From positions 1-38,291 of the IMG/VR virus record IMGVR_UViG_3300044712_000427: a stretch of DNA of 38,291 bases. One strand, 5' to 3'. This document shows positions 898 to 38,291 of this stretch, piece by piece. The notes under the pieces were generated by a model that was given only the letters and a program-made list of their open reading frames with translations, was not told the origin of the DNA and ran no database searches. Position numbers and translations under genes: made by a program. The DNA is from a virus. Numbering within the stretch: the first letter of the stretch is position 1; each line of letters opens with the position of its first letter.

Positions 898-974
898 TTT
901 ATTAAATGTTTAGTAAATTGATAATTAAGTGGTTTCTAATCGGCAACAAACGCCAATACTCAAACGTTGCCATA
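842..974 (-). other. attC-like site containing the start codon of the 607-897 gene
   Basis: Minus-strand arm GAGTATTGGCGTTTGTTGCCG (941-961) opposes CGGCAATAACGCTAATACTG (849-868). They pair over about 20 positions with two mismatches and one bulge. The 72-nt spacer (869-940) contains the ATG at 895-897, and the 3' arm encodes residues 10-16 of that gene. Cores are GGCAAC near 966-971 and GTGCTACC at 842-849; the second is a degenerate GTT core. Same layout as the sites at 32573-32716 and 33372-33507. Confidence 0.55.
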
Positions 975-2510: not shown

Positions 2511-2627
2511 CGAAAAAAGAAATACCCAATAGGAATCGGCTATTGGGTTTCTCAATCTTTCGATTGTTTTAGGCAGCTTCCGCCGCTTATATTTTTACCG
2601 ATGTCCGATTCACATCTGTGTTTTTCT
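2511..2627 (-). ncRNA. putative small RNA with kissing-loop architecture
   Basis: About 115 nt, bounded by the promoter at 2633-2663 and the terminator at 2524-2548. On the minus strand it forms hairpin 1 GATGT-GAATCGG-ACATC (2616-2600), hairpin 2 GCGGC-GGAA-GCTGC, hairpin 3 CAATC-GAAA-GATTG, then the terminator ACCCAATAG-CCGATTC-CTATTGGGT. The 7-nt loops of hairpin 1 (GAATCGG) and the terminator (CCGATTC) are perfect complements, so an intramolecular kissing complex is possible; hairpins 2 and 3 have GNRA-type tetraloops. No ORF of note. I do not recognise the family. Confidence 0.65.
2524..2548 (-). terminator. Rho-independent terminator of the small RNA
   Basis: 9-bp perfect stem ACCCAATAG/CTATTGGGT with 7-nt loop CCGATTC on the minus strand, followed by a U-rich tail (ATTTCTTTTTT). 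It ends the transcript from the 2633-2663 promoter and backs up the late-operon terminator at 2675-2692. Confidence 0.8.
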
Positions 2628-2632
2628 TAATG

Positions 2633-2663
2633 CAAATATACTACTATTTTTTAATTATGCAAA
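2633..2663 (-). promoter_or_regulatory. promoter of the small RNA
   Basis: Minus strand: -33 TTTG (2663-2660), 19-nt spacer, -7 TATATTTG (2640-2633). This is an excellent match to the Bacteroidetes primary sigma consensus. It sits immediately downstream of the late-operon terminator with no coding gene following, which points to an RNA product. Confidence 0.8.
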
Positions 2664-2674
2664 TAAAAATAAAA

Positions 2675-2692
2675 GCTCGACCGAAATCGAGC
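2675..2692 (-). terminator. late-operon terminator
   Basis: Perfect stem GCTCGA/TCGAGC with loop TTTCGG on the minus strand, followed by TTTTATTTTTATTT. It lies 38 nt after the stop of the last late gene (2730-2966), closing the 23-kb late transcription unit. Confidence 0.85.
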
Positions 2693-2729
2693 CTTTACCA
2701 CCAAAAACTATATTCACCCACAAAAAAAA

Positions 2730-2966
2730 CTATTCCTTTTCTATTTTTTCAAACGCATCGAATAAAGCGTCAATTATCTCATAAGCTATTTGCACGGCTT
2801 CAGGATGAACGGCTGCAAGCTTGTTTTTTAATCTCTCTAACCCTTGATTGTCAATTAGCTGAATAGCTAACCCATCAACACTTTCAGCAAGTTTGTTATT
2901 AAATTTGATTAACCCTTCTAAGGTTTTTTCTTGTTCAGGGGTCAAAAACCCTTTTCTTTCTTCCAT
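2730..2966 (-). CDS. hypothetical helical protein at end of lysis module
   Basis: 78 aa beginning MEERKGFLTPEQEKTLEGLI; predicted all-helical and rich in Glu, Lys and Leu, with no membrane segment. Proteins of this style (N-terminal GFLTPEQE) recur near lysis genes of Bacteroidetes phages, from general recall. Last gene of the late operon, 4 nt after the small membrane protein gene. Function unknown. Confidence 0.7.
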   Translation of the reverse strand: MEERKGFLTPEQEKTLEGLIKFNNKLAESVDGLAIQLIDNQGLERLKNKLAAVHPEAVQIAYEIIDALFDAFEKIEKE

Positions 2967-2969
2967 AAT

Positions 2970-3155
2970 TTATGTATTAAAATTTGTAATTATTTTTCCT
3001 AATCTGCCTAAAATAACGGCTGCAACAGGAACCCAGGGAGCGGCTGTAAACGCTGCCACAGATCCAACTACGATACCTATATCTTGAATTACATCACCTA
3101 TTACCCTCCACTTAACGGGAGTTGGTTGATAGTATTTTTTTGCTAAATCTTTCAT
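2970..3155 (-). CDS. small membrane protein, candidate holin
   Basis: 61 aa. After a polar N-terminus (MKDLAKKYYQPTPVKWRVIG) comes a hydrophobic, Ala/Val-rich stretch at about residues 25-53 (GIVVGSVAAFTAAPWVPVAA) that can form one long or two short membrane segments. The start overlaps the stop of the amidase gene by 4 bp. Size, context and hydrophobicity fit a holin or spanin-like lysis helper; no sequence family is certain. Confidence 0.6.
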   Translation of the reverse strand: MKDLAKKYYQPTPVKWRVIGDVIQDIGIVVGSVAAFTAAPWVPVAAVILGRLGKIITNFNT

Positions 3156-3649
3156 AATGCTGTTAAGTCAATTAAACCAGTTTTTTTAACTAAGTCATTC
3201 CAAGGGAAAGAATCAATTCCTTCACCTTTTCTAACATCTATTTTACGTCCAGGACTAATAAATGAGTGATCGCAAATATATCGCACATGTCCGTTTGATT
3301 TTTTTATTTCGTTTATTGTTTCGATACATGCGTTTATTTGCTCGTCATTCCAAGTATCACCAACTATTGAAGGTGGCCCAACTAATTCTATGCCATAAGA
3401 ATAATTGTTCGCATACGATCCAAATTTTTTAGTAAAGCTTTGTCCGGCGTGCCACGCTCTATCGGTAAGCTCTACCATTTTAACAGTTTCTCCATTTGTA
3501 TTAATGATGTAGTGTGCGCTTGCCTGGGCTTTTTTATCAAGCATCCAATTTAAAGAAGGCTCGAATTTGCCAGCCGTCCAATGTATTACCACTAGCTGAG
3601 GTGCAATATTCCAACCTTTTGAAAAATTTGGGCTTAGTTTTTTTATCAT
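3152..3649 (-). CDS. N-acetylmuramoyl-L-alanine amidase (endolysin)
   Basis: 165 aa, an Amidase_2/PGRP-type zinc amidase that cuts the MurNAc-L-Ala bond of peptidoglycan at lysis. Visible landmarks: VVIHWTAGKFE (first zinc His), HYIINTNGETVKM, AWHAGQS and the C-terminal HSFISPGRKID, where His and Asp/Lys complete the site. The length fits a single catalytic domain without a wall-binding module. No signal peptide, so export needs a holin; membrane-protein genes overlap it on both sides (3646-3885, 2970-3155). Confidence 0.92.
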   Translation of the reverse strand: MIKKLSPNFSKGWNIAPQLVVIHWTAGKFEPSLNWMLDKKAQASAHYIINTNGETVKMVELTDRAWHAGQSFTKKFGSYANNYSYGIELVGPPSIVGDTWNDEQINACIETINEIKKSNGHVRYICDHSFISPGRKIDVRKGEGIDSFPWNDLVKKTGLIDLTAL

Positions 3650-3885
3650 GATTTATAAATTGCTAAAAAAATACTTATAATAAACGTCACTACTGCCACA
3701 CCTCCCGCAATCATCCATTTTTGTCGTTTGTCTGTTTCAATATATCTATCGTGTTTGCATACTTTTGATACTAATCCTTCAACACCTATCTTATCAGAGC
3801 CGCACACAGCCATTTTTAACTCAGTAACTGCCTCTAAAATAGTATTTTGTGTTTCTTCAATTTTTTTTAATTTATCTGATTCCAT
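3646..3885 (-). CDS. XhlA-like membrane protein, candidate holin partner
   Basis: 79 aa with an N-terminal coiled coil (MESDKLKKIEETQNTILEAV), a middle region with two Cys (AVCGSD, KVCKHD) and one C-terminal transmembrane segment (KWMIAGGVAVVTFIISIFLA) ending in YKS. This N-out coiled coil plus C-terminal anchor is the layout of XhlA-type hemolysin/holin accessory proteins. Overlaps the amidase start by 4 bp and the head adaptor stop by 1 bp. Role inferred from topology and position. Confidence 0.65.
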   Translation of the reverse strand: MESDKLKKIEETQNTILEAVTELKMAVCGSDKIGVEGLVSKVCKHDRYIETDKRQKWMIAGGVAVVTFIISIFLAIYKS

Positions 3886-4406
3886 TACAAACGAAAACTT
3901 ATAAAATTAGACCGATTTACTTCAGATTGCGAATTTGACCATAACGGGTAACTCGATGAATTTGCATTTAGGAATTCAATTAAATCATTTGCATATCCTT
4001 GCGCTGTTGAGGTATACCCGGCTGATATTGTTTGTTTTTCTTTAGCACTTTCAAAACTTTGTTGTTGATTATTTACAAACTGAATTGCGCCAATTGTGCC
4101 TAAAAATAAATCACCTTCGCGAGTTGCCAGCGATAACCACCAATAACAAAGAATAGGTTTAATACCGTAAAAATGAACTAATTCGCCATTCACTACATAA
4201 TCTTTACCGTTGAGTAAATCGTAGTAAATACCAGTTGCTCTATCACTTGCCATAAAAGCTTTATACAAAGCACCACCAAGTAAATTGCGTAAATTAGTGC
4301 GCTGTATTTCCATGCAAAAAGCATCAAACCTAATCTCATTAAACTTCGAGTCTATTTGACGATATTCTCGTACATCCGATATTGATATGAGTGATATTTC
4401 AGCCAT
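3885..4406 (-). CDS. head-tail connector/adaptor-like protein
   Basis: 173 aa, MAEISLISISDVREYRQIDS. Pattern of a DUF6712-type Bacteroidetes phage adaptor: N-terminal helix pair with NLRNLLGGALYKAF, a central KPILCYWWLSLATREGD helix and a polar C-terminus ending FRL. Directly follows the portal gene with no gap, the usual place for a connector on the portal ring. Assignment rests on position and overall pattern. Confidence 0.55.
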   Translation of the reverse strand: MAEISLISISDVREYRQIDSKFNEIRFDAFCMEIQRTNLRNLLGGALYKAFMASDRATGIYYDLLNGKDYVVNGELVHFYGIKPILCYWWLSLATREGDLFLGTIGAIQFVNNQQQSFESAKEKQTISAGYTSTAQGYANDLIEFLNANSSSYPLWSNSQSEVNRSNFISFRL

Positions 4407-5747
4407 TTATTCATCATCATTAACTAACCATATATTTATTTGCTCATCTGAAAAACCAAACCCATCTTTTAATAGAGTTGCCGCCTGGTCTTGTGTTAAT
4501 TCGCCTTTTTTAAATTTTCTTGTTATTCTGAAAACGCCCTGCAACTGTCTACCTGTAAGATTTGTTAGTGTGTCGTTTACTGATGATTGAATTGGCGTTG
4601 CTGTTGATTGTAAAGCCTCGCCGCGCATCTCAAATTTTTTAGGTTCAATTTTTATTGTACCTATATTTGCCCAAATTGATATTGAAATGATTTTATTTAA
4701 TTCTCTTTCAATTTCAATTCTTTCAGTTTGAGTCGCTGAATTGTAGTAATGAAAGGCATCGGCGAAAGACTCTTGGTTAAACATGCCGGAAGTGGCCACT
4801 CCGTTTAATATTGGCGGTTGCCTGAAAGCTGCATAAATATTAAACTTAGCGTCTTCTTTTTGATTTTTGTGTAATGCATCAATATTGTTTCGGCTCATCG
4901 GTGTGAACCATTTCCAATTGGTCATGCCTTCATTTGGCATGGCTCCTATTACTCTTACACCTCCGGCATTCGCTGAACCCTGGTCATTTTGAAGGTCTTC
5001 TTTAATATCTTGAATTTCTTTCGAGTCTGAAATATTTTTAGGATAAGTAATTAAGCCGCTTAGTGAATAATCATTTTGAATACTCGAAAGCCCGTACAGT
5101 TTGGCCTCAGCTTCAAACTGGGCATCATCTAAAACAGAATCCCAATTACATACAGTATAATAGTCAGCTAAATTAGGTATCCAGTAAAGAAGTTGCCCGT
5201 TATAATTATCAATGCCTCTGCATTCTTTTATTTCTTCTAAAACATTTGCAGGATTAAAAGGACTATATTCTATTTCTTCTTTTCTTCTGTTGCGCCTAAA
5301 CCAATCAGGATTAACTATAAATGAGTTGAGGTTTTTTGACCAGCGCACAAATTCGAAATTAATAGGATTAATCTCTGTAATTTGACCTAGCATATTGTAA
5401 TTAAAGTGCAATGCAAATCCTTTAAACATAGCCCGACTATCGGAAATATGTCGTAAAATATCCCAAAGTGTTTGATTTTCAGAATTGACAATTGTTGTCA
5501 TTTGCGCGAAACCTTCACCGCTTAAAAAAGCTGAAAGAGTGCCAATTGAGCTCATTGTAGTGCCTGAACGTTGAGCAATTGCTTTTACTTTATTGGGATA
5601 TAGATTATCTCGGTCATAAGGGATAATGCGATCGGCTGGGTAAGCTATATTAACATATAAACGTTCAACATGTAAAGTGCGCTGAATCGAATTTACCGCT
5701 ACTTTTAACCCGGTTTCTTTGGCTTCTATGGTAGAGCCGTTATTCAT
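4407..5747 (-). CDS. portal protein
   Basis: 446 aa. Recognisable portal features: an early IIPYDRDNLYPNKVKAIAQR segment, a long middle with LWDILRHISDSRAMFKGFAL and SRNNIDALHKNQKEDAKFNI, and the wing/clip-like AFRQPPILNGVATSGMFNQE followed by an ERIEIERELNKI helix. It forms the dodecameric DNA-entry ring. Overlaps the upstream gene by 8 bp and abuts the adaptor gene. Unusually it lies near the end of the late operon, far from the terminase. Confidence 0.75.
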   Translation of the reverse strand: MNNGSTIEAKETGLKVAVNSIQRTLHVERLYVNIAYPADRIIPYDRDNLYPNKVKAIAQRSGTTMSSIGTLSAFLSGEGFAQMTTIVNSENQTLWDILRHISDSRAMFKGFALHFNYNMLGQITEINPINFEFVRWSKNLNSFIVNPDWFRRNRRKEEIEYSPFNPANVLEEIKECRGIDNYNGQLLYWIPNLADYYTVCNWDSVLDDAQFEAEAKLYGLSSIQNDYSLSGLITYPKNISDSKEIQDIKEDLQNDQGSANAGGVRVIGAMPNEGMTNWKWFTPMSRNNIDALHKNQKEDAKFNIYAAFRQPPILNGVATSGMFNQESFADAFHYYNSATQTERIEIERELNKIISISIWANIGTIKIEPKKFEMRGEALQSTATPIQSSVNDTLTNLTGRQLQGVFRITRKFKKGELTQDQAATLLKDGFGFSDEQINIWLVNDDE

Positions 5748-24374: not shown

Positions 24375-25571
24375 TTAAATAGGTTTAATATATTTTCGGT
24401 AATAACGAGCTCCATATCTAATTGAGTCAATTGCATGGTTATTCTTGTCTTCTGGTATATCTAAATATTTTCCAGTCACATCTTGCACTCTTTTATAGTT
24501 TTTGAACTCGTGCTTTATATTTTCAGAATCTTGATGCACAAATATAGTAAATTCTTGTAATCTTTCAATGCCGTCAATAATAGAGCCTTCACCCTTTGTT
24601 GCCCCGTATGCTTGTATCTGGGCCATTTGCAACTCAAATATTTTATCCTTTCGCGCACTGTCACAAATAACAGGGCATTCAGGTAATGAATGTATATATT
24701 CTATTAGTTTCGAATTTAGAATCTGAGGTTTATAAATATGCTCTATAACATATAAATGATTATTATTTCCGTCAAAATAAAGCTCTGTTAATGTTGTTGG
24801 GTCAAATCCTCCCCAGTCTATAACAAGCATTCTGAATAGTTCACAATCTGGCAATATTTCAAATTCCTGCCAATTTTGAAATATAACACCCTCTAATTGG
24901 CCCTTCAATCCCAATCCGTAAACTTGCCACCAGTTCCACCAGTAACCACGTTTCCCAGCTTTATCTTCTGCTTCTGCTTTACATTTTGCAAAATAAAATT
25001 CTTCTAATTGCCCTTTTGTTAAATTATTTATACCTGTCAAAGGGTTGTAATTTTCTAAAAAAGTAGAATGAATTGTTGTTGCATTATCTCTTTTTTCAAA
25101 ACCTTCATTTTCCCACCAAAATTCCTCAGAAGGGTTCCAATCAACAAATACTACTTCCTCGGTCCTTTGCATCAGTTGGTGACAAACATTAAATGGCATT
25201 TTGTTAGCTTCATTAATAAATAGTCTTTTTCTTGAAGCTCCCAATGCTTTACCTGGATTGTCAAATCCTATAAATTCTATAATGTTTGTATTTATTTTAA
25301 AATAACATGGTTTAACATGCTTTATATCTGATACGTTATAACCACTACTAGATAGTATATTTTCGAAATCACGAATTGCCCCACCTTCAAGATGAGGGAA
25401 AGAATGAGATACAACAGTATTTATACTATTTTTATCATTTTCGCAAATTGTCTTAATTACTTGAAGTTCTGAGAATGTTTTTGAAGAACGGCTGCTGCCT
25501 TTGTTGCCTATGTATCTAAAACCATCATTGTAAGCTTTTAAAGTCTTTCCAAATACAGGCGTGGTTATCAT
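24375..25571 (-). CDS. terL: terminase large subunit
   Basis: 398 aa, PBSX/Terminase_3-type packaging ATPase-nuclease. Walker A-like GNKGSSRSSKTFSELQVIKT near residue 25, Walker B RLFINEAN, motif III-like VDWNPSEEFWW, then the RNase H-like nuclease: MLVIDWGGFDPTTLTELYFD (first Asp), PVICDSARKDK (second acidic) and DIPEDKNNHAIDSIRYGARY (third Asp). Drives DNA into the prohead and cuts it. The start overlaps the small subunit by 4 bp. Confidence 0.93.
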   Translation of the reverse strand: MITTPVFGKTLKAYNDGFRYIGNKGSSRSSKTFSELQVIKTICENDKNSINTVVSHSFPHLEGGAIRDFENILSSSGYNVSDIKHVKPCYFKINTNIIEFIGFDNPGKALGASRKRLFINEANKMPFNVCHQLMQRTEEVVFVDWNPSEEFWWENEGFEKRDNATTIHSTFLENYNPLTGINNLTKGQLEEFYFAKCKAEAEDKAGKRGYWWNWWQVYGLGLKGQLEGVIFQNWQEFEILPDCELFRMLVIDWGGFDPTTLTELYFDGNNNHLYVIEHIYKPQILNSKLIEYIHSLPECPVICDSARKDKIFELQMAQIQAYGATKGEGSIIDGIERLQEFTIFVHQDSENIKHEFKNYKRVQDVTGKYLDIPEDKNNHAIDSIRYGARYYRKYIKPI

Positions 25572-26056
25572 TTGAATTTTTCTTTTAGCTTTTCTAATTC
25601 AAAAGCTACTTCTGGTGATGACACTATTATTTCTTGAGTACCATTTATTGTATGGTCAATCTCTGTTTTTTCTCTTAAACCTAATAATCTGGCCGTTATT
25701 GTAGGATTATACGCGTCAACTAAAGCTCCCTCTGTTTGATTTGTCTCTATTTTTCTACGCACACGCGATAAGACTTCGAAATATGTTTTATACTTTTCCT
25801 TCTTTTCGTAGTTGTAAAATGTTTGTATATCAATATCCAAAAATGTACATAGACCAATTATTGTATAAGGTCTTAGTGTAGGTATTTTAATTATAGCTCC
25901 TGCTCTATCACCACTTTTAATAACTTCATTTTTAAACCAGGGATTTTTATCGCACCAATCAAAATATTCATTTGCCTTTTTTTCAAAAGACTGAGGTGTA
26001 TATTTTTTAGGTTTTACACAATCATTATATTTTTTATGTCCTTTTGGTGCAGGCAT
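25568..26056 (-). CDS. terS: terminase small subunit
   Basis: 162 aa, MPAPKGHKKYNDCVKPKKYT. A basic N-terminus, HTH-like helices (YTIIGLCTFLDIDIQTFYNY), an oligomerisation helix (EVLSRVRRKIETNQTEGALV) and a C-terminal LLGLREKTEIDHTINGTQ, all typical of DNA-recognition subunits paired with Terminase_3. Its ATG overlaps the stop of the preceding mini-ORF (TAATG). Confidence 0.88.
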   Translation of the reverse strand: MPAPKGHKKYNDCVKPKKYTPQSFEKKANEYFDWCDKNPWFKNEVIKSGDRAGAIIKIPTLRPYTIIGLCTFLDIDIQTFYNYEKKEKYKTYFEVLSRVRRKIETNQTEGALVDAYNPTITARLLGLREKTEIDHTINGTQEIIVSSPEVAFELEKLKEKFK

Positions 26057-26222: not shown

Positions 26223-26251
26223 CAAATATAACTATTTTTATTTAAAAACAA
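26223..26251 (-). promoter_or_regulatory. late promoter
   Basis: Minus strand: -33 TTG (26251-26249), 18-nt spacer, -7 TATATTTG (26230-26223). It lies between the cassette array and the terminase genes and is the only strong promoter visible for the 23-kb structural operon. Confidence 0.75.
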
Positions 26252-26293: not shown

Positions 26294-26342
26294 CATTTAT
26301 AAAGATATGTTATACTTTTATGGCATTTAGCAACTAGTTATA
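26294..26342 (-). repeat. 49-bp conserved array 3' flank
   Basis: 44 of 49 bases identical to 31778-31826 (and to the copy at 38185-38233). On the minus strand it begins with the cassette core TATAAC, contains TTGCTAAA and GTATAACATAT, and ends at an ATG. It immediately follows the last cassette of each array, so it may be a half-attC or an array anchor. Confidence 0.65.
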
Positions 26343-26347
26343 GCCAA

Positions 26348-26698
26348 TTAAAGCACCGAATCATAATTAGTGCCTCTATCGTCATAATCCCATTTAGAAT
26401 CAAGCTCATAATATTCTTTTTTTGATTGGTGGTATTCGATTCCTTTTTGCAATTCTTTAATTTGAGAATTAAGTTTATCTATTTTATTTTGCCTTTGCTC
26501 TGAAATGTATTTTTGTGCATCATTAAGCGTTTCAAAATATCTATCTGAAGTCATAGATAAGCATACCCTCCAATTATACTCCGTACCAGCACTACGCAAA
26601 GCCCTAACAAATGCGTAACTATCAGTTAATTTAACGCAATCCCTTTCCCATATTCTAACTAAATCATCCTTTACAATATATACTTTAAAAAACTCCAT
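26348..26698 (-). CDS. cassette gene, coiled-coil hypothetical protein
   Basis: 116 aa, MEFFKVYIVKDDLVRIWERD. Small alpha/beta N-terminal half followed by a coiled coil (NKIDKLNSQIKELQKGIEYH) and an acidic C-terminus (WDYDDRGTNYDSVL). Bracketed by the best cassette core pair in the window: TTAACTGGCTATAAC (26709-26723) and GTTATAGCCAATTAA (26337-26351), 14 of 15 complementary. Function unknown. Confidence 0.7.
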   Translation of the reverse strand: MEFFKVYIVKDDLVRIWERDCVKLTDSYAFVRALRSAGTEYNWRVCLSMTSDRYFETLNDAQKYISEQRQNKIDKLNSQIKELQKGIEYHQSKKEYYELDSKWDYDDRGTNYDSVL

Positions 26699-26714
26699 AT
26701 CTATAAAATTAACT

Positions 26715-26806
26715 GGCTATAACACACGGTATAAAACATGCCGTGACAAGCCTGTATATAATCTGAAACATTCTACATCGGCACGTTTCATACCGCCAAC
26801 GTTAGC
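26715..26806 (-). other. attC-like site
   Basis: Minus-strand order: core GCAGCTAAC (the TAA stop of the 26802-27176 frame is inside it), arm CGGTATGAAACGTGCCG (26795-26779), spacer, arm CGGCATGTTTTATACCG (26743-26727), core GTTATAGCC. The 17-bp arms match at 15 positions. Total about 92 bp, in the attC size range. Confidence 0.68.
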
Positions 26807-26853
26807 TGCGATAACAAATAGCCTGCTTCAACGAATAGATTCTCATTGCTCCA
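26798..26853. repeat. shared cassette 3' end (copy 1)
   Basis: 51 identical bases with 28194-28244, then one mismatch and four more matches. It encodes the C-terminal MRIYSLKQAICYRS of two otherwise unrelated proteins and includes the attC core GCTAAC. Confidence 0.9.
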
Positions 26854-27176
26854 GTAAGTAAGCAGTAATCTTTAGCGTGTTTTTCAACTACTGTTAAATA
26901 ACCATAAGGCACTTCAACAACCTTTGCCCCATACTCAATACATTTTAGCGTGTTTTGGTGCATCTCTTTACGTTTTGCACAAAATATTGTAGCTTTTTTA
27001 TTTACGCTTTGGCAGTAAGCAGATAAGGCTATTTGAAAGCCACCATAAACAGGCGAAGCATAAACATATTCCAAATCATCCCCAATTATTGAAGGTATTA
27101 AAATTGACTTTGTGCCTCCAGTTAGTAAATCATCTCTCAATATATTCACTCCTTTGTGTTGCTCTATTGTTATCAT
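26802..27176 (-). pseudogene. truncated PLP-fold protein with a foreign C-terminal tail
   Basis: 124 aa. Residues 1-110 resemble the N-terminal third of a phage-borne PLP-dependent fold-type II enzyme (ACC deaminase/threonine dehydratase style): LRDDLLTGGTKSI with the expected lysine, YASPVYGGFQIALSAYC, KATIFCAKRKEMH, EYGAKVVEVPYGYL. Full-length relatives are about twice as long, from general recall. After CLLTGA the frame runs into MRIYSLKQAICYRS, identical to the nuclease gene's end at 28198. Best read as a 3'-truncated chimera; probably not an active enzyme. Confidence 0.65.
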
Positions 27177-27177
27177 C

Positions 27178-28041
27178 TTATTGTTTTTTAAATATTAATA
27201 CGTTTTCGTGAACTTTAGTTAATTTGCCACCAGCTTCAAATATTTTACCAGCCCTTAACATTGCAGTTCCTAAAGGTTGCAATAAAATAGCTTCATTGTA
27301 TAAACCAGCACCAGCATTTATAAAAGCCAGTTTTGTATGGCTTATAAAATCTCTATAAAAGCCCTTTTTATCCCTAATATCTCCAACCACAAAACAAGCA
27401 TAACCACCGCCTTTTAATTTAGCCACTGCCTTTTTTATTATTTCAGCATACACTTTTATAAATTCGTTGTATTCCATTGTGCTTAAATCTTCTTTCATTT
27501 CGCTGTAAACTTCCAAATCAGCATAAGGTGGGCAACTAAAAACTAAATCATACATAGGTATTAATTCCGTTAAAACAACATTACTATCCCCCACATAATA
27601 TTGTGGTTGCCTGTTTACTGGTAATAGTTTTATTGCTTGTTCTCTATTGCTATCTATTTGCTCCTGCCTTATATCTATTCCAGTATAATTATAGCCTAAA
27701 TAATTAGCTACAATTCCACGAACCGAGCCACCAGCAAAAGGGTCAAGTATCGTTCCATTTTCAGGACAATACCAATTATAAATAAGTTCACATAATGCAG
27801 GGTCAAATATTGACACTTCTGGCATTGATTTTCTGCCATATTTATCGCCATCAAATGAATTATTTATTACAACAACTCCTTCTCTACCTAAATGGCTTTC
27901 AATACCAAGTTGTTTCCATTGGCGTTTTCTTGTTTGCCAACTACCACTCTTTGTGTCTAATACGCTAAAAGGCGGCTCCATAAATTTGTCCCTTAACAGA
28001 ACATCTTTTACAATTTCGTTTCCGAATAAATCTACTTCCAT
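27178..28041 (-). CDS. DNA methyltransferase (N4-cytosine/N6-adenine type)
   Basis: 287 aa. AdoMet motif I ILDPFAGGSVRGIVANYLGY, followed by YTGIDIRQEQ, and catalytic motif IV FSCPPYADLEVYSE (CPPY), the signature of amino-methyltransferases. N-terminal EPPFSVLDTKSGSWQTRKRQ is typical of phage DNA modification methylases. No partner nuclease of a restriction system is adjacent, so it probably protects phage DNA. It is the first gene of a two-gene cassette; the second is broken. Confidence 0.85.
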   Translation of the reverse strand: MEVDLFGNEIVKDVLLRDKFMEPPFSVLDTKSGSWQTRKRQWKQLGIESHLGREGVVVINNSFDGDKYGRKSMPEVSIFDPALCELIYNWYCPENGTILDPFAGGSVRGIVANYLGYNYTGIDIRQEQIDSNREQAIKLLPVNRQPQYYVGDSNVVLTELIPMYDLVFSCPPYADLEVYSEMKEDLSTMEYNEFIKVYAEIIKKAVAKLKGGGYACFVVGDIRDKKGFYRDFISHTKLAFINAGAGLYNEAILLQPLGTAMLRAGKIFEAGGKLTKVHENVLIFKKQ

Positions 28042-28102
28042 ATTTTCTATTTTTTAATGATTTAATGATTAATTCCCACCGCACAAAAAATTAAAACAAA
28101 CA

Positions 28103-28202
28103 GCGTATAACACGGGTTTTGTGCAATTTGCCCTATTAACTTTCTGCTATAATTTGAGCGTTTGTGCAAGGGCAAACTGACACAAAGCCCGAAAACGTTA
28201 GC
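28103..28202 (-). other. attC-like site
   Basis: Minus strand: core GCAGCTAAC, arm CGGGCTTTGTGTCAGTTTGC (28191 downward), short spacer, arm GGGCAAATTGCACAAAACCC (28133-28114), core GTTATACGC (28111-28103). The arms pair over about 21 bp with two mismatches and a bulge. It separates the nuclease cassette from the methyltransferase cassette. Confidence 0.68.
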
Positions 28203-28249
28203 TGCGATAACAAATAGCCTGCTTCAACGAATAGATTCTCATTGTTCCA
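28194..28249. repeat. shared cassette 3' end (copy 2)
   Basis: 51 bases identical to 26798-26848. Here the encoded tail follows RYEIARLGT smoothly and looks native to the nuclease protein, so this copy, or a relative of it, is the likely donor. Confidence 0.9.
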
Positions 28250-28770
28250 AGTCTCGCTATTTCGTAGCGTTCTTTTTCTGACCATTTATAGTCAAATAAT
28301 TTTTTGGGTTTTTTTGCTTGATAAAATTTCCTTACTCCCGGATATTCATACTTAGCTAAAACCCATAATCCGCAAAAATCAGGAATTATTTCTAATGCGT
28401 ATTCTTTCAATTGTTCAGGCACGGCATAGTAGAAATATTTAAACTTACCATAATATCTTTCAAATCCAGTCTTACCGTTGTGCATTTGTTCAAACTTACA
28501 ATGTTGCGGTTTTTTAAAATCTGCTTTCAAATCTGATTTGCTTACTTTGATTTCAAAACCGTAAGCATAAAGGCTGTTTGTAAGTACAAGCATATCGGTT
28601 TCGAAAGGCAATAAACACATCATGTTTGTAATGTTTGGGACTATTAAGTTTTGCCTGAAATTAAATTCTTTCATAATAGCCAGTTCAATATCCAAACAAG
28701 TTACCGCAGCTAACACAGTATTTGCGTCATTGGCGGTTACGTTCTCGCTGGATAGGTTATCGGTTTTCAT
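28198..28770 (-). CDS. MmcB-like PD-(D/E)XK nuclease in a cassette
   Basis: 190 aa. Core ETDMLVLTNSLYAYGFEIKV SKSD gives the D...ExK catalytic pattern of PD-(D/E)XK nucleases; YYGKFKYFYYAVPEQLKEYA and IPDFCGLWVL match the MmcB/DNA-repair nuclease style. The leader (MKTDNLSSENVTANDANTVL) resembles that of the 607-897 gene. Cassette cores CGCAGCTAAC (28705-28714) and GTTAGCTGCG (28197-28206) are a perfect 10-bp pair, with the 5' one inside the ORF at codons VLAAV. Probable role in DNA repair or host DNA degradation. Confidence 0.7.
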   Translation of the reverse strand: MKTDNLSSENVTANDANTVLAAVTCLDIELAIMKEFNFRQNLIVPNITNMMCLLPFETDMLVLTNSLYAYGFEIKVSKSDLKADFKKPQHCKFEQMHNGKTGFERYYGKFKYFYYAVPEQLKEYALEIIPDFCGLWVLAKYEYPGVRKFYQAKKPKKLFDYKWSEKERYEIARLGTMRIYSLKQAICYRS

Positions 28771-28812: not shown

Positions 28813-30600
28813 TTAAAATGGTTCTATTTCGTTTGTCGGCATGTAATCAAATTCTTTATTTGTCTCAATAGTTCTGTTAATATTAATTATTTCTTCAATA
28901 ATTGGCTCATTAAATTTTATTGGTATTTCATCTGCCGTTTCGAAATATTGGTTTTTTGAAACAGAATAATACATGTCAATTTCGCCAGGTATACCTACAA
29001 GTCTTTGCTTTTTTATTTTACCTATAATTATTCTAACCGTATTATCTGACGGGTTCGATTTTCTAAAAGGTCTCCAAACTGCAATTACATTATCTGATTT
29101 ATCCGAGAAAGTCCCGCCTCCTTTAATTTTGTAAGTGTCAGGTTGTGGGTAGTTTTCTTTTCCTGAGAACATTGGAGTTACTTGATGGGCCACAAGATGC
29201 ATCGAAATATCATTGTCAACAGCGAACCTTTTTAAAGTTGACATGAATCTGCTAATGTAAAGGTCCTCTCTCTCTCCACGCTCCATTAAATGCTCTATCT
29301 GATTGTAAGGGTCAATAATGCAAGAGTTAACGCCATACTTTCGAATTAACCAACGCATTTTTGAAAGTATTGTTTCTAAATGGTAGTTTTCATCCGGAAT
29401 TATTGCGTAAAAATGTTCGTGAATATAGCTTGCAGCCTCATTATATTCTTTTTCGGTCATAACATTGTTATATCTTTTATCTGTTGACTTTCCAACATAG
29501 CAATGTATTAGCTCGTCATAATATTCTCCGACAGGGTAATTTTCAGGACTAAAAACCGCAAACTTCCAATTCTCCGCCTTTGCCTTATTAATACATAAAT
29601 TTGCTAAAAAACAACTTTTGCCTTCGTTATTATACCCGGTCCATATGTTTACATCTCCACCCCTCCACTTCCAATGCTTGTCAAATTCTTTGAAGTAAGT
29701 CGTTGTTCCAAACTTCTTACCATTTCGAAATGTATTTATCATCGAGTCCCATGTTTGAGCTAAAAATATAATACCATCCATTGGTATTTCTTTTGCTTCA
29801 GATATGGTCCTGCCTAATTCTTCTTTACCAAATGACACAAGATATTCATTGGCATCTTTTTTGCCTTTAAAATCAATCAAAAGACATCTTTCAGCCCCTA
29901 TTCTACGAATCAACTCATCTCTCAATAACATACCAGGTTCATCGGTATCAACTGCTATATATACTTTCTCAATCCTTTCAAGTTCATCAAAACAATTATC
30001 TAAAAATTGAAAATTCTTAGCTCCGTTCGGAACAGATAAAACATTTCGTATACCTACTTCAAAATAGCTTAATGCGTCAATTTCTCCCTCAACTATTACA
30101 GCTTCTTTACTATCTTTAATCGAATCTATGTTGTAAAAAATTAACTCAGCATCCTTGTAAATCTTAAATGACTTTTGCGGACCGCGATATTTTATGTTAA
30201 TTAATTCGTCATTTCGAAAATAATTAAAATGAATAGTATCGACTTCTTTGTTAAATTGTGGCATCCAATCGAATCCGGTTGTTATTTTCATTTGTCTAAG
30301 AGTGAATTGACTTATTCCTCTATTTTCAAAATACTTTACAGCCTTATCTGATAGGTCCGTATTATTTTGCCATTCGGGCCTAATGTATTTCTTTTCTTCA
30401 ATCTTAACTTTCTGAATATAAAAAACAGCTCCGCAATTAAAACACATTCCAGTTTGTTTATCATGATTCCAAGAAAGGCATTTATCAGTTTTCTTTTTTC
30501 TGGTATGTGAACAAGCCGGACAAAGTATTTGTTCCTCACCTCTGAACTTTCTGAGGTCCACATTTATTTGTTCGCCAGTTTGCTTATTAGTTATTTTCAT
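28813..30600 (-). CDS. primase-helicase (DnaG-type zinc finger, TOPRIM, DnaB-like helicase)
   Basis: 595 aa, T7 gp4-style bifunctional replication enzyme. Zinc-binding: Cys27, Cys30, then Cys53 and Cys56 (CPAC...CFNC). TOPRIM: VIVEGEIDALSYF with Glu171 and AVDTDEPG with Asp218/Asp220. RecA-like helicase: Walker A GYNNEGKS (322-329), FSPENYP (H1a-like region), Walker B CIIDPYNQIEHL, VAHQVTP and a PQPDTYKIKGGGTFSDKSDN segment. Synthesises primers and unwinds DNA at the fork. Overlaps the replisome organiser gene by 4 bp. Confidence 0.93.
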   Translation of the reverse strand: MKITNKQTGEQINVDLRKFRGEEQILCPACSHTRKKKTDKCLSWNHDKQTGMCFNCGAVFYIQKVKIEEKKYIRPEWQNNTDLSDKAVKYFENRGISQFTLRQMKITTGFDWMPQFNKEVDTIHFNYFRNDELINIKYRGPQKSFKIYKDAELIFYNIDSIKDSKEAVIVEGEIDALSYFEVGIRNVLSVPNGAKNFQFLDNCFDELERIEKVYIAVDTDEPGMLLRDELIRRIGAERCLLIDFKGKKDANEYLVSFGKEELGRTISEAKEIPMDGIIFLAQTWDSMINTFRNGKKFGTTTYFKEFDKHWKWRGGDVNIWTGYNNEGKSCFLANLCINKAKAENWKFAVFSPENYPVGEYYDELIHCYVGKSTDKRYNNVMTEKEYNEAASYIHEHFYAIIPDENYHLETILSKMRWLIRKYGVNSCIIDPYNQIEHLMERGEREDLYISRFMSTLKRFAVDNDISMHLVAHQVTPMFSGKENYPQPDTYKIKGGGTFSDKSDNVIAVWRPFRKSNPSDNTVRIIIGKIKKQRLVGIPGEIDMYYSVSKNQYFETADEIPIKFNEPIIEEIININRTIETNKEFDYMPTNEIEPF

Positions 30601-31292
30601 CGGTATTCTTCTTTAAGTTCAGCTAGGTAATAATGAGTGGATAAATTTTGTTTTGATTGTTCTTTATTTTCATCTTTAAACCAAACAGATTGAGCTTTTT
30701 GCTTCCAATTTTTAACTATATTTCCTTTACTATCTTTCCATTCGGCAACTGAATAGTATTTAAAGAATTTTATAGAACTTTGCTCAGTATATCCGTTTTC
30801 TGTAAAATATAATCTTACTTCTTCAATTGTTGGATATACTATGTTCTTTTCTTTCTTTACCTTCTTAGGATTCTTAGTATTCTTTAGTTGTTGTTGTTCG
30901 TCTGTTAGCGGCGTGTTAGCGGCGTGTTGTTCGCCTGTTAGCGGCGTGTTGTTCGCCTGTTGGTTATCTTGGTATTTATCATAATTACAGACAGTTAACC
31001 GTGTTGAATATTGTAACCCTTCTACAATAATCATATTATCAGACTCAAGTAATTTAAAAAACGACCTTACATTTTGTAAGGACCAAACAAATTTATTTGC
31101 CCAACTTTGTAAAGATAAAAGACTTTGACCTCTTAAACAATCATATAACTGTCCTTTTATCAAAACTTTTTTATCTTCATAATTAACTGTAAATAAGATT
31201 GTTTCCCATGCCTCTCGTTTTGTTAATGGTCTATATTCATCACAAAGCCAATGGTCCAAGAAGGACCGATGTAATTTTATCCATCCTTCCAT
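30597..31292 (-). CDS. replisome organiser/DnaD-like replication initiation protein
   Basis: 231 aa. N-terminal winged-helix style region (GWIKLHRSFLDHWLCDEYRP LTKREAW; SLLSLQSWANKFVWSLQNVR) typical of phage replication initiators, then a linker with a duplicated unit (NTPLTGEQ, NTPLTDEQ), a Lys-rich stretch, and a C-terminal helical domain (YPTIEEVRLYFTENGYTEQS; WKQKAQSVWF). It probably binds the origin and loads the helicase encoded next to it. The linker repeat follows DNA tandem repeats at 30903-30962. Confidence 0.8.
   Translation of the reverse strand: MEGWIKLHRSFLDHWLCDEYRPLTKREAWETILFTVNYEDKKVLIKGQLYDCLRGQSLLSLQSWANKFVWSLQNVRSFFKLLESDNMIIVEGLQYSTRLTVCNYDKYQDNQQANNTPLTGEQHAANTPLTDEQQQLKNTKNPKKVKKEKNIVYPTIEEVRLYFTENGYTEQSSIKFFKYYSVAEWKDSKGNIVKNWKQKAQSVWFKDENKEQSKQNLSTHYYLAELKEEYR
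30903..30962. repeat. tandem repeat in replisome organiser linker
   Basis: TTAGCGGCGTGTT and GTTCGCCTGTTAGCGGCGTG units recur two to three times. They encode the Thr-Pro-Leu-Thr linker repeats. Such repeats in replication protein genes can act as origin iterons; here the linker function alone explains them. Confidence 0.6.
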
Positions 31293-31632: not shown

Positions 31633-31777
31633 CAGGTTTTTTTAAAACCTTAATTTCTTAATGTTGGTCGTAGTCAACAATGCAAATATTGCTAAATTCA
31701 ATTAAATATTACACAATTTCATAAATAATTTATACAATATAATTTATTTTAACAATACTATATATTTGTATTTTAGG

Positions 31778-31826
31778 CATTTACAAAAATATGTTATACT
31801 TATATGGCGTTTAGCAATTAGTTATA
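31778..31826 (-). repeat. 49-bp conserved array 3' flank
   Basis: Second copy of the element at 26294-26342 (44 of 49 identical). On the minus strand it ends at ATG followed by CCTAAAATACAAATATATAG, the start of the 37969-38187 gene, which here breaks off after eight codons and stops soon after. Confidence 0.65.
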
Positions 31827-32169
31827 TACCACTTAAAGAAAGTTCCTCGCCTGTAAGTGCATAGTATAAATTTTGTAGTTGGTGAGCAAAATGAATTTCG
31901 GCAATCCATGTTTCAGTTTCACCAAAATAAACCTGACCTTCTACGCTAATTATAAATTCGCCAATATGATAATAACCTACAGTCCCTTCTTCTAAACCAA
32001 ATTTAATAAGCCAGCCTTCATTTAATTTAATCGGAACGGCTTGCCATGTAGTAAGGCATTCAAAGTCAAATACAATATTCCCTGACCTTAATAGCTCAAG
32101 TACCTTAATTACTTTATTTGAATATTTTTCTATAAAAACATTCCCTATTCTTAATTCATTTGCTTTCAT
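31822..32169 (-). CDS. cassette gene, conserved Bacteroidetes phage protein
   Basis: 115 aa, MKANELRIGNVFIEKYSNKV ... WLIKFGLEE ... FAHQLQNLYYALTGEELSL. This is a recurrent small protein of Bacteroidetes phages and mobile elements (N-terminal NELRIGN, C-terminal HQLQNLYxALTGEEL), function not established. The cassette boxes GTTATATACC (31821-31830) and GGTATATAAC (32200-32209) are a perfect 10-bp inverted pair, extending to 14 of 15. A second copy exists at the contig ends. Confidence 0.8.
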   Translation of the reverse strand: MKANELRIGNVFIEKYSNKVIKVLELLRSGNIVFDFECLTTWQAVPIKLNEGWLIKFGLEEGTVGYYHIGEFIISVEGQVYFGETETWIAEIHFAHQLQNLYYALTGEELSLSGI

Positions 32170-32199
32170 ATATTTTTGTTTAAATAATTAATAATAAGC

Positions 32200-32337
32200 G
32201 GTATATAACAAGCGGTCATAAAACATTGGGGTTTAATTTGTTATTCAAACTTTGTACCCCGTGCAAAGTTCGGTTTCGGCTGATAGGTTCGTGGCTCGAA
32301 ATTCCCAACGATTTTATACCGCCAGCCGTTAGCAACA
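32200..32337 (-). other. attC-like site (complete copy)
   Basis: Minus strand: core TGTTGCTAAC, arm GGCGGTATAAAATCGTTGGG, spacer of about 75 nt, arm CCCCAATGTTTTATGACCGC, core GTTATATACC. About 135 bp. Copy at 1-129. The arms match at 17 of 20 positions. Confidence 0.7.
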
Positions 32338-32341
32338 AGCA

Positions 32342-32623
32342 TTAAAACGGCGTTGGTACTTCTGGACAATCTGGAAGCTCTTGCCATGCGTAAATATATT
32401 CAGGAATTTTTAAATCTGAATCATTTGCATAGCAATCTTTCATATAATCTCTTGTTTCAAGTGAGCCAATCCATTTTTTGCCGTTCCAAAATCCCTGAAT
32501 TGGCTTCTTGTCGTATTTATATGCAATTAACACTTCTTTATTAACTTCTGGCAGTTCAGGTAAAAAATGCCAGTTGCTAACAACAGGTATATTCAATTGC
32601 GGTTTTTGTGTTTCTTTTGCCAT
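32342..32623 (-). CDS. cassette gene, DUF551-like protein
   Basis: 93 aa. WHFLPELPEVNKEVLIAYKY, GFWNGKKWIGS and YIYAWQELPDCP match the WxxLPxxxxxVLV...W...VxxWxxLP pattern of DUF551-type phage proteins, function unknown. The first 15 residues (MAKETQKPQLNIPV) are encoded inside the upstream attC-like hairpin. Core GTTGCTAAC (32573-32581) lies in the ORF and pairs with GTTAGCAAC (32328-32336), 9 of 9. Confidence 0.75.
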   Translation of the reverse strand: MAKETQKPQLNIPVVSNWHFLPELPEVNKEVLIAYKYDKKPIQGFWNGKKWIGSLETRDYMKDCYANDSDLKIPEYIYAWQELPDCPEVPTPF

Positions 32624-32716
32624 TTGTTCTCGTATTTAAGTTATTACTAATTTGATAATTCCGTGCTTCGTAGTCCGCAACTGAAATATACCTGCGGACG
32701 TTGTGTGCAATTTTGC
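32573..32716 (-). other. attC-like site containing a start codon
   Basis: Minus-strand arm CAGGTATATTTCAGTTGCGG (32696-32677 region) opposes CCGCAATTGAATATACCTG (near 32602-32584): 17 of 19 pairs with one bulge. Between the arms lie the ATG at 32621-32623 and the first codons of the DUF551-like gene. Cores: CACAAC (32705-32700) and GTTAGCAAC (32581-32573). Confidence 0.65.
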
Positions 32717-32717
32717 C

Positions 32718-32978
32718 CTAAGCATACCACACGCATTCACAGTCTGTGCATTTATCGGCATCTGGCCCCCATGCAATAATATTTCTACTATAACAATTAG
32801 GGCAAAACTGTCCGCTTCGCCACACAACATGCGGTATACGCAATTTTTTTAACTCCGCTTCTGCAAAATCACTAAGTTTCTGCTTACCAAATATTGGGGC
32901 CACTTGTCCATGTATCTCTTTATACCAATGGTCTGCTATCTTATTAGCTATCAACCTTTCTATTTCTTTTGTTTTCAT
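32718..32978 (-). CDS. two-part protein: helical N-terminus plus cassette-borne zinc ribbon
   Basis: 86 aa. Residues 1-50 (MKTKEIERLIANKIADHWYK ... KKLRIPH) are helical; residues 51-86 are a zinc ribbon, CPNC...CTDC. The cassette core CACACAAC (32821-32828) falls exactly between the parts and pairs with GTTGTGTG (32700-32707). The mobile unit would therefore be about 120 bp and encode only the zinc ribbon, with the N-terminal domain inside the upstream attC-like site. Confidence 0.7.
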   Translation of the reverse strand: MKTKEIERLIANKIADHWYKEIHGQVAPIFGKQKLSDFAEAELKKLRIPHVVWRSGQFCPNCYSRNIIAWGPDADKCTDCECVWYA

Positions 32979-33035
32979 ATTCGTTCTATTTATCCGTTAA
33001 AAAAACATGACGCATACCGCCGTCCGTTAGCGGGC
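32821..33035 (-). other. long attC-like site enclosing 50 codons
   Basis: Minus-strand arm GGCGGTATGCGTCA (33021-33008) opposes TTGCGTATACCGCA (32843-32830): 11 or so pairs. The spacer holds the ATG and first 47 codons of the 32718-32978 gene. Cores: GCCCGCTAAC (33035-33026) and GTTGTGTG (32828-32821). The weakest hairpin of the set but with matching cores at both ends. Confidence 0.45.
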
Positions 33036-33434
33036 ATTTAAAATCACCGCCTGATAGTTTTGTACAGCTTGATACTTTTTTACTGCCTTATAAAATTTCT
33101 TCCAGTTAGAAACCTGTCCATTAGTTGTTATATTTTGCAATATTTCTTCTGCTGCATATAAGGCATCTGATTTAGTCTGTAATTGTTTTAAAATATACAA
33201 TATTGCTTTTATCGTATCTCCTTCAATTGTCAAATACTTAGGTTTATAAATTTGCTTTACTGTATCGGAATTTGTCGAATATGGAGCATGTAAAATCAAT
33301 TGAAATTCTGGTTTTGGTAAAGAATCGGCATTTATAAATTGAATTTTTTGACCAAATGAAAATGAATAAACGCCCGCTAACAATGCACATAAGCAAAGCC
33401 TGGTTAAATACGTATTTAAAGTTTTGTTTTTCAT
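33027..33434 (-). CDS. cassette gene, secreted-type protein
   Basis: 135 aa from the ATG at 33432-33434; a longer frame uses TTG and runs through the attC. The N-terminus (TYLTRLCLCALLAGVYSFSF then GQK) is a Sec signal peptide with Q-rule end. The mature part is predicted helical (ILYILKQLQTKSDALYAAEE; NWKKFYKAVKKYQAV). Cassette core GCCCGCTAAC (33372-33381) lies inside the signal sequence at LLAGV and pairs perfectly over 10 bp with GTTAGCGGGC (33026-33035), where the stop codon also lies. Confidence 0.65.
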   Translation of the reverse strand: MKNKTLNTYLTRLCLCALLAGVYSFSFGQKIQFINADSLPKPEFQLILHAPYSTNSDTVKQIYKPKYLTIEGDTIKAILYILKQLQTKSDALYAAEEILQNITTNGQVSNWKKFYKAVKKYQAVQNYQAVILNAR

Positions 33435-33507
33435 ATTATTGTTATTTATAAATTGATAAAATAGTTCTTTGAAATCCGGCTCAGCGCATGTGCTGGACGT
33501 TATACGC
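33372..33507 (-). other. attC-like site containing a start codon
   Basis: Minus-strand arm AGCACATGCGCTGAGCCGG (33494-33476) opposes CCAGGCTTTGCTTATGTGCA (33403-33384). The ATG at 33432-33434 and 11 codons lie between the arms. Cores: GCGTATAAC (33507-33499) and GTTAGCGGGC (33381-33372). Confidence 0.6.
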
Positions 33508-33509
33508 AA

Positions 33510-33896
33510 TTAAAATGGCAAGTCATCGCCACTTAAAAGCATATTGATTTGAGATTTAATTTCATAAATCTGAATATCCATTACCTTTTTAGCTTGATTG
33601 CAATATAAATCCTTTTGCCTGTGCGTAAATCCAGTTTTATTTAAATCAAAAAGCATTTTAGCCGCTTCCAATTGAGCTATATTTTTTGAAATAAATTCTT
33701 TGAAATTTTTTCTCAGTTCAGCGAGTTTGTTTTTTTCTTCATTTAACAATCTATTTAAGTTGTTTTCTTTTTCAGTCCAGTCCTCTTTAAATTGTTGATG
33801 ACATGCCATTCTAAGTATATTTACTATTTTTTCGGCTTTTTCTCCTTCTACTCCATTATCGAGTAAAATATCTAAAACAGGTTCTTTTTTTAACAT
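33510..33896 (-). CDS. cassette gene, coiled-coil protein with SSB-like C-terminal tip
   Basis: 128 aa. Helical throughout, with a long coiled coil (KENNLNRLLNEEKNKLAELR) and a C-terminus LLSGDDLPF. The acidic DDLPF end is the interaction peptide of bacterial SSB proteins, bound by primase, RecO, PriA and others. Without an OB-fold this may be an SSB-tip mimic that recruits or blocks those partners (inference). Bracketed by GCGTATAAC (33926-33934) and GTTATACGC (33499-33507), 9 of 9. Confidence 0.7.
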   Translation of the reverse strand: MLKKEPVLDILLDNGVEGEKAEKIVNILRMACHQQFKEDWTEKENNLNRLLNEEKNKLAELRKNFKEFISKNIAQLEAAKMLFDLNKTGFTHRQKDLYCNQAKKVMDIQIYEIKSQINMLLSGDDLPF

Positions 33897-33925
33897 TGTA
33901 TTTATTTTAAAAATTAATAATAAAA

Positions 33926-34062
33926 GCGTATAACAACGGCTTATAAAACATAGGCGGTTCAGTGCGTTGCCAACTGTATCGCTCGTATCAAGTTCGGTGA
34001 CGTATGATAGTTTCGCGGCTTCGTATCGCCTACGATTTTATAGCCGCGTCCGTTAGCAAACA
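33926..34062 (-). other. attC-like site
   Basis: Minus strand: core TTTGCTAAC, arm CGGCTATAAAATCGTAGGCG (34046-34027), spacer of about 70 nt with its own small hairpins, arm CGCCTATGTTTTATAAGCCG (33956-33937), core GTTATACGC. The arms pair at 17 of 20. About 137 bp, close to the upper usual attC size. Confidence 0.72.
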
Positions 34063-36640: not shown

Positions 36641-37168
36641 TTATTTTTTGTTAAAATGTCCCCATTTGAAACGAACTTTGTCATTATTATCTTTACAGGC
36701 TAATCCAGTTAACTTACCTTCTGTAAATTCTGAAATCCACTTCCAGTCTTTTAGTTTTAAAAGATAAGTAGTTTTGCCTGTTGTTTTATCAAATTCTTCA
36801 TCTGTTAATTGAACTTTAATGACAGGATAATCATAAAGCTCGCGACCTATACCCCAATTAAAACAAGCACGTTTAAATGAATCGCTAGCAAGTCCTTTCT
36901 CTTTTTCTGTATTACTTTCGGTTCCGGTGTCCTCTTTTGAAACCCATTGTTTTTTAATATCGTCCCAAATAGAAACGATACAGTTTTGGTTTTCTCTAGT
37001 ATGTTCGCGCTTCCAGTTTAATCGCCCGCAAACTTCATCTAATCTATTCATGTCAGCTCTGGCATCTTTATAGGCCAAAATTGTAGCGAATCCACCTTTA
37101 TTGACTGATTGTATTCTAAAATCTATTTCGTCAATTTTTAAAGGCTCTGATAATTTTTTTAGTTCCAT
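36641..37168 (-). CDS. Rad52/Sak-like single-strand annealing protein
   Basis: 175 aa. GGFATILAYKDARADMNRLD, NWKREHTREN and especially KGLASDSFKRACFNWGIGRE LYDYP match the Rad52/Rad22 (Sak) annealase core, where the helix with SxxFKRAxxxxGIG is diagnostic. It promotes annealing of complementary strands in phage recombination. Preceded by a promoter and an RNA element (37185-37262), so its expression may be controlled in its leader. Confidence 0.82.
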   Translation of the reverse strand: MELKKLSEPLKIDEIDFRIQSVNKGGFATILAYKDARADMNRLDEVCGRLNWKREHTRENQNCIVSIWDDIKKQWVSKEDTGTESNTEKEKGLASDSFKRACFNWGIGRELYDYPVIKVQLTDEEFDKTTGKTTYLLKLKDWKWISEFTEGKLTGLACKDNNDKVRFKWGHFNKK

Positions 37169-37968: not shown

Positions 37969-38187
37969 TTAATCAAATAACCAATCTGGATAGTTTGGAT
38001 ATTCTTTGTTTGTTTTTTCTTTATAATAAAAATCGTTTGCTTTATTTATAACTGCTATTTCTCCGCCTTCTCGTAACAAATTAACAGCGTTTACTTTATG
38101 TAATATTAAATAGTTCCAAGCTTTTTCGCAACGTAATGATATTTTTATTGCATAAACTTTTTTGCTATATATTTGTATTTTAGGCAT
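37969..38187 (-). CDS. hypothetical small protein at the duplication edge
   Basis: 72 aa, MPKIQIYSKKVYAIKISLRC ... NYPDWLFD. Its first eight codons lie inside the duplicated segment; the copy at 31758-31780 keeps only these before running out. The ATG is the one that ends the 49-bp conserved flank. This copy is intact and probably ancestral. Confidence 0.65.
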   Translation of the reverse strand: MPKIQIYSKKVYAIKISLRCEKAWNYLILHKVNAVNLLREGGEIAVINKANDFYYKEKTNKEYPNYPDWLFD

Positions 38188-38291
38188 TTACAAAAATATG
38201 TTATACTTATATGGCGTTTAGCAATTAGTTATATACCACTTAAAGAAAGTTCCTCGCCTGTAAGTGCATAGTATAAATTTTGTAGTTGGTG
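38165..38291. repeat. 127-bp contig-end copy of 31758-31884
   Basis: Identical to 31758-31884; the preceding base differs (G here, A there). Marks entry into the 578-bp duplicated segment at the contig end. Includes a third copy of the 49-bp flank (38185-38233). Confidence 0.9.
38229..38291 (-). CDS. partial second copy of the 31822-32169 gene
   Basis: Only the last 20 codons (HQLQNLYYALTGEELSLSGI) and the stop are in the window; the rest is expected across the contig junction, followed by the attC-like site at 1-129. Identical to 31822-31884 over the visible part. Confidence 0.8.
   Translation of the reverse strand, partial: HQLQNLYYALTGEELSLSGI

Follow-up and report, generated by a model that had tools for sequence, protein, structure and literature searches.

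The window, that is, the whole 38,291-base virus record analysed here, carries on its minus strand a primase/helicase gene (28813-30600), followed by the interval 26294-28770 and then by the terminase genes (Table 1). The host group of the phage is most likely Bacteroidota. As the sequence-only reading had placed it, the interval follows the primase/helicase gene, and a Bacteroidota-type promoter separates it from the terminase genes. The loose motif of this promoter recurs at 17 places in the window, so that the argument for the promoter is its position. The cargo of the interval comprises an orphan DNA methyltransferase (MTase), a nuclease-like protein and small proteins without assigned function. 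Elsewhere, the phage encodes a Rad52/22-family annealing protein (36641-37168). Its DnaD-like helicase-loader gene contains a short tandem repeat (30892-30957) of TGTTAGCGGCG / TGTTGTTCGCC units, which reuses the core-like word GTTAGC.

Table 1. Features of the interval between the primase and terminase genes and of the other attC arrays of the window (CM, covariance model)
Feature	Position	Strand	Basis or remark
Third-array attC sites	1-123, 482-602, 844-969		CM matches
Terminase large subunit	24375-25571	minus	profile match
Terminase small subunit	25568-26056	minus	profile match
Bacteroidota-type promoter TTG-N18-TATATTTG, late operon, preceding the terminase small subunit	26223-26251	minus	motif scan
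Fixed boundary (attI-like) site with G|TT crossover 26337|26338	26294-26342	+	repeated at low edge of arrays
Cassette A: o116 body and attC1	26338-26801		own R'/R'' ends complementary over 10 nt
o116, 116 aa, function not assigned	26348-26698	minus	weak profile matches only
attC1	26720-26804	+	scanner 36; CM 23.6 bits, E 0.017; DNA fold z -3.8 on minus strand
Chimeric unit B, made up of a nuclease tail (53 bp), the truncated PLP gene, the MTase and attC2	26802-28197		ends complementary over 4 nt
o124, truncated PLP-dependent enzyme fused to nuclease tail MRIYSLKQAICYRS	26802-27176	minus	phrog_7093 positions 15-128 of 279
Orphan N6/N4 DNA methyltransferase, 287 aa	27178-28041	minus	PF01555 E 8.5e-15
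attC2	28108-28200	+	CM 70 bits, E 7.6e-12
Cassette C body: nuclease-like gene	28198-28714		own ends complementary over 10 nt
Nuclease-like ORF, 190 aa	28198-28770	minus	phrog_2776, phrog_5429
Surviving arm of broken attC, right array edge	28711-28733	+	sequence reading: TAAC and arm resembling attC 844-969
Primase/helicase	28813-30600	minus	profile match
Second array: attI-like site and attC 32206-32331, 32578-32703, 33378-33502, 33931-34055	31778-34055		repeat, scan, CM
Third array start, running on across contig ends into 1-969	38185-38291		end repeats, CM

attC-like hairpins and boundary sites

Two inverted core pairs and two hairpins had been noticed in the interval from the letters alone, and both kinds of feature were recovered. 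The pair of the o116 gene (26337-26351 / 26709-26723) and that of the nuclease gene (28197-28211 / 28700-28714, with a perfect 10 bp inside) are each complementary at 14 of 15 positions. The hairpins, attC1 and attC2, are attC-like according to their fold, a structural scan and a covariance model. Both consist of an R''-like TATAAC, an imperfect hairpin and an R'-like GTTAGC. Compared with dinucleotide shuffles, the single-strand fold of attC1 has z values of -2.1 and, on the minus strand, -3.8; those of attC2 are -3.2 and -3.1 on its two strands. A scan for TAAC-arm...arm-GTTA gave 5 strong sites in the window, attC1 and attC2 included, and no equally strong one in 10 dinucleotide shuffles.

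The covariance model was built here, in place of IntegronFinder's own model, from 26 distinct attC sites of isolated Flavobacterium phages and zero window sequence. The search of the window used no filters. In the alignment of the 26 sites, 16 of the 17 stem pairs show compensatory double changes. The top scores in the window are those of attC2 (70 bits; less independent than the other scores, because close attC2 relatives sit in the training set), 32578-32703 (62.5), 844-969 (54.3) and 33378-33502 (51.8), followed by 32206-32331 (34.2), 33931-34055 (33.4), 482-602 (25.9), attC1 (23.6) and 1-123 (21.9). These matches are all on the plus strand and the next one has an E-value of 0.43. All above-chance matches in the window fall within the three arrays. 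In 37 Flavobacterium phage records (Muminvirus/Lillamyvirus/Hattifnattvirus group), there is a site with 80-82% identity to the attC2 hairpin. attC1 is the weakest case; its fold, its boundaries and cassette A also speak for it. The idea that many of the Flavobacterium sites are half-sites was ruled out; they are full attC with long loops. Exact 20-22-nt patterns taken from the attC tail and the boundary site had no match in viral or genome contigs.

attC1 and attC2 are 1.3 kb apart, and eight or nine sites form three clusters in the window; a CALIN is defined by at least two close attC. Search for the integron integrase TIGR02249 gave no match in the window, which corresponds to a CALIN and not to a complete integron. 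We conclude that the interval is very probably an integron-type cassette array without integrase (CALIN), one of three in this phage.

The 49-bp boundary sequence at 26294-26342 recurs at 31778-31826 and 38185-38233 with 90% identity, always at the low-coordinate edge of an array. Folding of the site at 26294-26342 revealed no hairpin. Its position suggests an attI-like role, and in the related Flavobacterium phages a fixed boundary site received a relocated cassette. The contig ends are exact 127-bp internal copies (1-127 = 32209-32335; 38165-38291 = 31758-31884), which diverge at the next base. Assemblers leave such exact end copies when a longer repeat is present twice, a typical break of the assembly graph. 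A second copy of 31885-32208 (the o115 cassette) probably closes the genome into a circle of 38,615 bp. That chance or an assembly artefact accounts for the arrays, as these terminal repeats might suggest, is practically negligible: the interval lies far from the contig ends, and the scan and covariance-model matches, the covariation and the cross-contig sharing go far beyond chance. A possible minimal attC remnant was also seen at 967-1013 (GATTTATAAC ... GTTATAAATC, a 10-bp inverted pair, 18 nt apart).

Cassette units and their relatives in viral contigs

Own ends are complementary over 9-10 nt in seven of the eight window units tested, the exception being the MTase/o124 unit with 4 nt. A protein 93% identical in amino acids to o116 was found within another attC array. 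In o124, the PLP gene breaks off after LLTGA (about residue 110-113) and reads on into the tail MRIYSLKQAICYRS. This ORF amounts to about half of a PLP-dependent enzyme gene plus a tail of 14 residues, which the nuclease gene has in identical form. A 61-bp duplicate that starts around the core links the o124 end (26793-26853) and the nuclease ORF end (28189-28249), which are 95% identical. Only half of an attC is left in the nuclease unit. For the arm that survives at 28711-28733, reading by eye, outside model scoring, found no complementary arm before the primase gene.

Cargo had been proposed to change at the GTTA/TAAC cores. Comparison with viral contigs bears this out for the o116 and nuclease bodies, which are shared exactly core to core. 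Over 395 bp, the o116 body (26338-26732) matches a locus (L180) of a 429,198-bp viral contig with 93.7% identity. The homology stops exactly at 26338, the crossover, and at the other end just past R''. The nuclease body (28195-28715) is 74% identical, core to core, to a locus (L179) of a 60-kb viral contig. The contigs sharing these two bodies are otherwise different from this phage. The MTase-PLP segment (26848-28054) is 86.9% identical to the viral locus L104, where no attC sites flank the pair and the PLP homologue has 230 aa. On a 40-kb viral contig (L132) there are 13 attC sites, and a relative of the window MTase is one of the cassettes between them. In the 429,198-bp contig, several attC-like sites (2550-5044) surround the cassette that is 94% identical to that of the phage. 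Neither a tyrosine recombinase nor a PF03237 terminase was found in this contig, which IMG/VR classes as viral.

Cassette turnover in related Flavobacterium phages

The sequence-only reading had called for a comparison of the primase-terminase interval across related phages. Variation bounded by the cores was found in distant Flavobacterium relatives; no close relative with the same interval was found. In TerL relatives (63-66% identity), the interval is not kept in comparable form, and in two of the closest ones no attC is present in the 10 kb upstream of TerL.

Near-identical isolates exactly gained, lost or relocated units. Comparison of lillamy9-1 and 9-3 shows that a 439-bp cassette was cut out at 5641, inside the array, and inserted again at the fixed site 2037. 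The joined sites share about 5 bp, and at three junctions the flanking sequence shows no net change. The same 439-bp unit is lost between sniff9-1 and 9-2, 506 bp are lost between mumin6-1 and 6-3, 343 bp are lost between snork6-1 and 6-2, 794 bp are gained between morran and lillamy, and snusmum6-1 and 9-1 differ by an 858-bp MTase unit at the fixed site, gain and loss being unpolarised in these pairs. In the lillamy, sniff, mumin and snork events, each break is at G|TTA and the shared sequence spans about 5-13 bp. When all pairs of 21 phages are compared, the GTT core is at the break in 88 of the 110 distinct breakpoint contexts, which count junction contexts and not fully independent events; for random positions the fraction is at most 0.35. 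In distant comparisons, some breakpoints are located at the R'' box or inside the conserved attC arms. Recombination at G|TT is conservative in the related isolates; in the window, it is seen only through the shared core-to-core bodies.

A relocation of 439 bp at about 5 bp of shared sequence, with three junctions free of net flanking change, is difficult to reconcile with phage annealing recombination that would shuffle genes at short cores and hairpins without a site-specific recombinase. The units also keep mutually complementary ends, which such recombination does not need. We consider this explanation improbable, even though the window encodes a Rad52/22-family protein (the Rad52-like product of 36641-37168), not every breakpoint is at G|TTA (some fall at the R'' box or within conserved attC arms), and unit B resembles an illegitimate fusion.

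Site-specific exchange of cassettes could also belong to the past. The cassettes would then have been captured from an integron long ago, with only ordinary mosaicism acting on them now. The right-edge attC is broken, the middle unit (MTase and truncated PLP gene) is a chimera and not a clean cassette, and no close relatives were found that would reveal turnover at this locus. Frozen relics nevertheless seem unlikely to us. Copies of a boundary site plus cassette are apparently identical in two window arrays (the outer 127 bp at each end were read directly), and isolates with the same attC class show fresh exact events.

Polarity, recombinase and relation to known integrons

In the moved or lost cassettes, the attC travelling with the gene sits at the start codon. 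In a classic cassette the ORF runs along the attC, which follows the stop codon; this arrangement is not found in the relocated and lost cassettes, and their crossover polarity relative to the ORF is the reverse of the classic one. The single bulged base is on the other arm than class 1 sites predict for the crossover seen. Polarity is lost in attC sites without extrahelical bases, and recombination can then take place at R'' (Bouvier 2009, PMC2727003). The start of the ORF lies within the attC loop at 10 of 40 sites, and its first residues are then attC-encoded; the remaining ORFs start beside the attC. The notion that every ORF starts inside an attC was ruled out, as about a quarter do. In the nuclease ORF (28198-28770), the first ~20 aa are an attC-encoded leader. 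The window nuclease and its L179 homologue are shared from the core onward and have unrelated leaders up to the same core.

A PF00589 search (E 0.1) of the window and eight related isolates gave no match. In 11 records (the window, the eight isolates and two further contigs), no Y1 transposase (PF01797), the mark of an IS200/IS605-type system, and no resolvase/serine recombinase was found. With no recombinase gene found in the phages searched, the enzyme must come from elsewhere or be unrecognised. In the 60-kb contig that shares the nuclease body, a weak tyrosine-recombinase match was seen in a 447-aa frame (L181, 20152-20688), a candidate for the enzyme; this contig has the same attC class. 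In E. coli, an attC from Polaribacter phage P12002L served as a substrate for IntI1 (PMC9892861). We located a P12002L attC at 30008-30056, with the same layout and beside the start of an MTase ORF; it may differ from the attC tested in that study. A genome search with the MTase as query retrieved only four distant loci, none from Bacteroidota.

A recombinase of another type, either a single-strand transposase or a new enzyme, might use the hairpins, the likeness to integrons being due to convergence only. However, the R'/R'' pairing, the type of crossover (G|TT) and the boundary site are all consistent with integrons, IntI1 accepted an attC from another flavobacterial phage (PMC9892861), and the 11 records are devoid of Y1 transposase and serine recombinase. 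Weighing these points against the lack of a tyrosine recombinase in the window and the eight isolates searched, a polarity relative to the ORF unlike that of classic cassettes, and the rarity of integrons in Bacteroidetes, where complete ones are hardly known (PMC9024848), we regard convergence as rather unlikely.

In the integron-type mechanism that we favour, each of the three arrays would begin at a fixed boundary site behaving like attI. An intact cassette would be a unit capable of forming a circle, composed of a gene and a palindromic attC whose R' and R'' boxes pair, and would pass through a circular intermediate. Single-stranded attC would fold into a hairpin and a site-specific recombinase would join the G|TT cores; cassettes could then be excised, moved and inserted without net change of the flanking sequence. 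Cassette ORFs run antiparallel to the commonest crossover direction, with the start codon beside or inside the attC, and some genes draw their first ~20 codons from whichever attC is upstream. The enzyme would be supplied in trans; our best inference is that a host or co-resident integron integrase is the most likely source.

Clusters of attC sites in phages have been described before (Qi et al. 2023, PMC9892861). The CALINs described there, with P12002L, are likewise attC clusters without intI in lytic phages, with MTase cargo and a G|TTRRRY core. In contrast, the present phage has three arrays in its genome with repeated boundary sites, leader peptides are swapped, and turnover was demonstrated between related isolates. 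The Flavobacterium phages are not mentioned in that work. The Muminvirus, Lillamyvirus and Hattifnattvirus arrays (MN812206-MN812237; PMC7077304) have the same attC class, reverse ORFs, a fixed boundary site and MTase cargo, but their core genome differs from that of the window and they form one large array at 1.4-8 kb. Nilsson 2020 (PMC7077304) mentions neither integrons nor cassettes. Chromosomal and mobile integrons (class 1, Vibrio superintegron) have in common with the phage arrays attC hairpins, complementary R'/R'', conservative G|TT exchange and insertion beside a boundary site. The phage arrays differ from them in lacking intI, in having ORFs antiparallel to the commonest crossover, and in that starts and leaders can be inside attC. 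Three features were not met with in the literature searched: movement of cassettes from one lytic-phage isolate to another, ORFs that begin next to or within attC and have exchanged leader peptides, and a genome with more than one fixed boundary site.

The cargo plausibly serves host takeover and restriction evasion. Four phages, lillamy, morran, hattifnatt9-1 and snusmum9-1, lack the MTase cassette of mumin6-1 (L077, 5426-6268). Every LMO6-isolated phage examined carries a mumin6-1-type or snusmum MTase cassette; lillamy9-1 and morran9-1 have neither. Among Flavobacterium phages, the presence of these cassettes (L077 5426-6268, L078 2039-2836) tracks isolation on strain LMO6. According to Nilsson 2020 (PMC7077304), a specific MTase is missing from LMO9 phages that plate poorly on LMO6, and for lillamy9-1 and morran9-1 regrown on LMO6, poor LMO6 plating depends on the last host. 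The link between cassette presence and LMO6 plating in PMC7077304 is an association only, and the MTase meant there may differ.

Taken further, Bacteroidota phages may have a cassette economy of their own, with attC of reverse polarity that carry starts or leaders, several landing sites, cargo flow between ~38-kb lytic phages and a 429-kb viral contig, an enzyme acting in trans, and turnover that separates isolates. We put this forward tentatively, as a serious possibility falling somewhat short of even. Integron cassettes are stores of bacterial adaptation. If lytic phages routinely swap counter-defence genes such as MTases as integron-type cassettes, this would provide a specific, testable mechanism for the mosaicism of Bacteroidota phages, and natural cassette differences exist among cultured Flavobacterium phage-host pairs.
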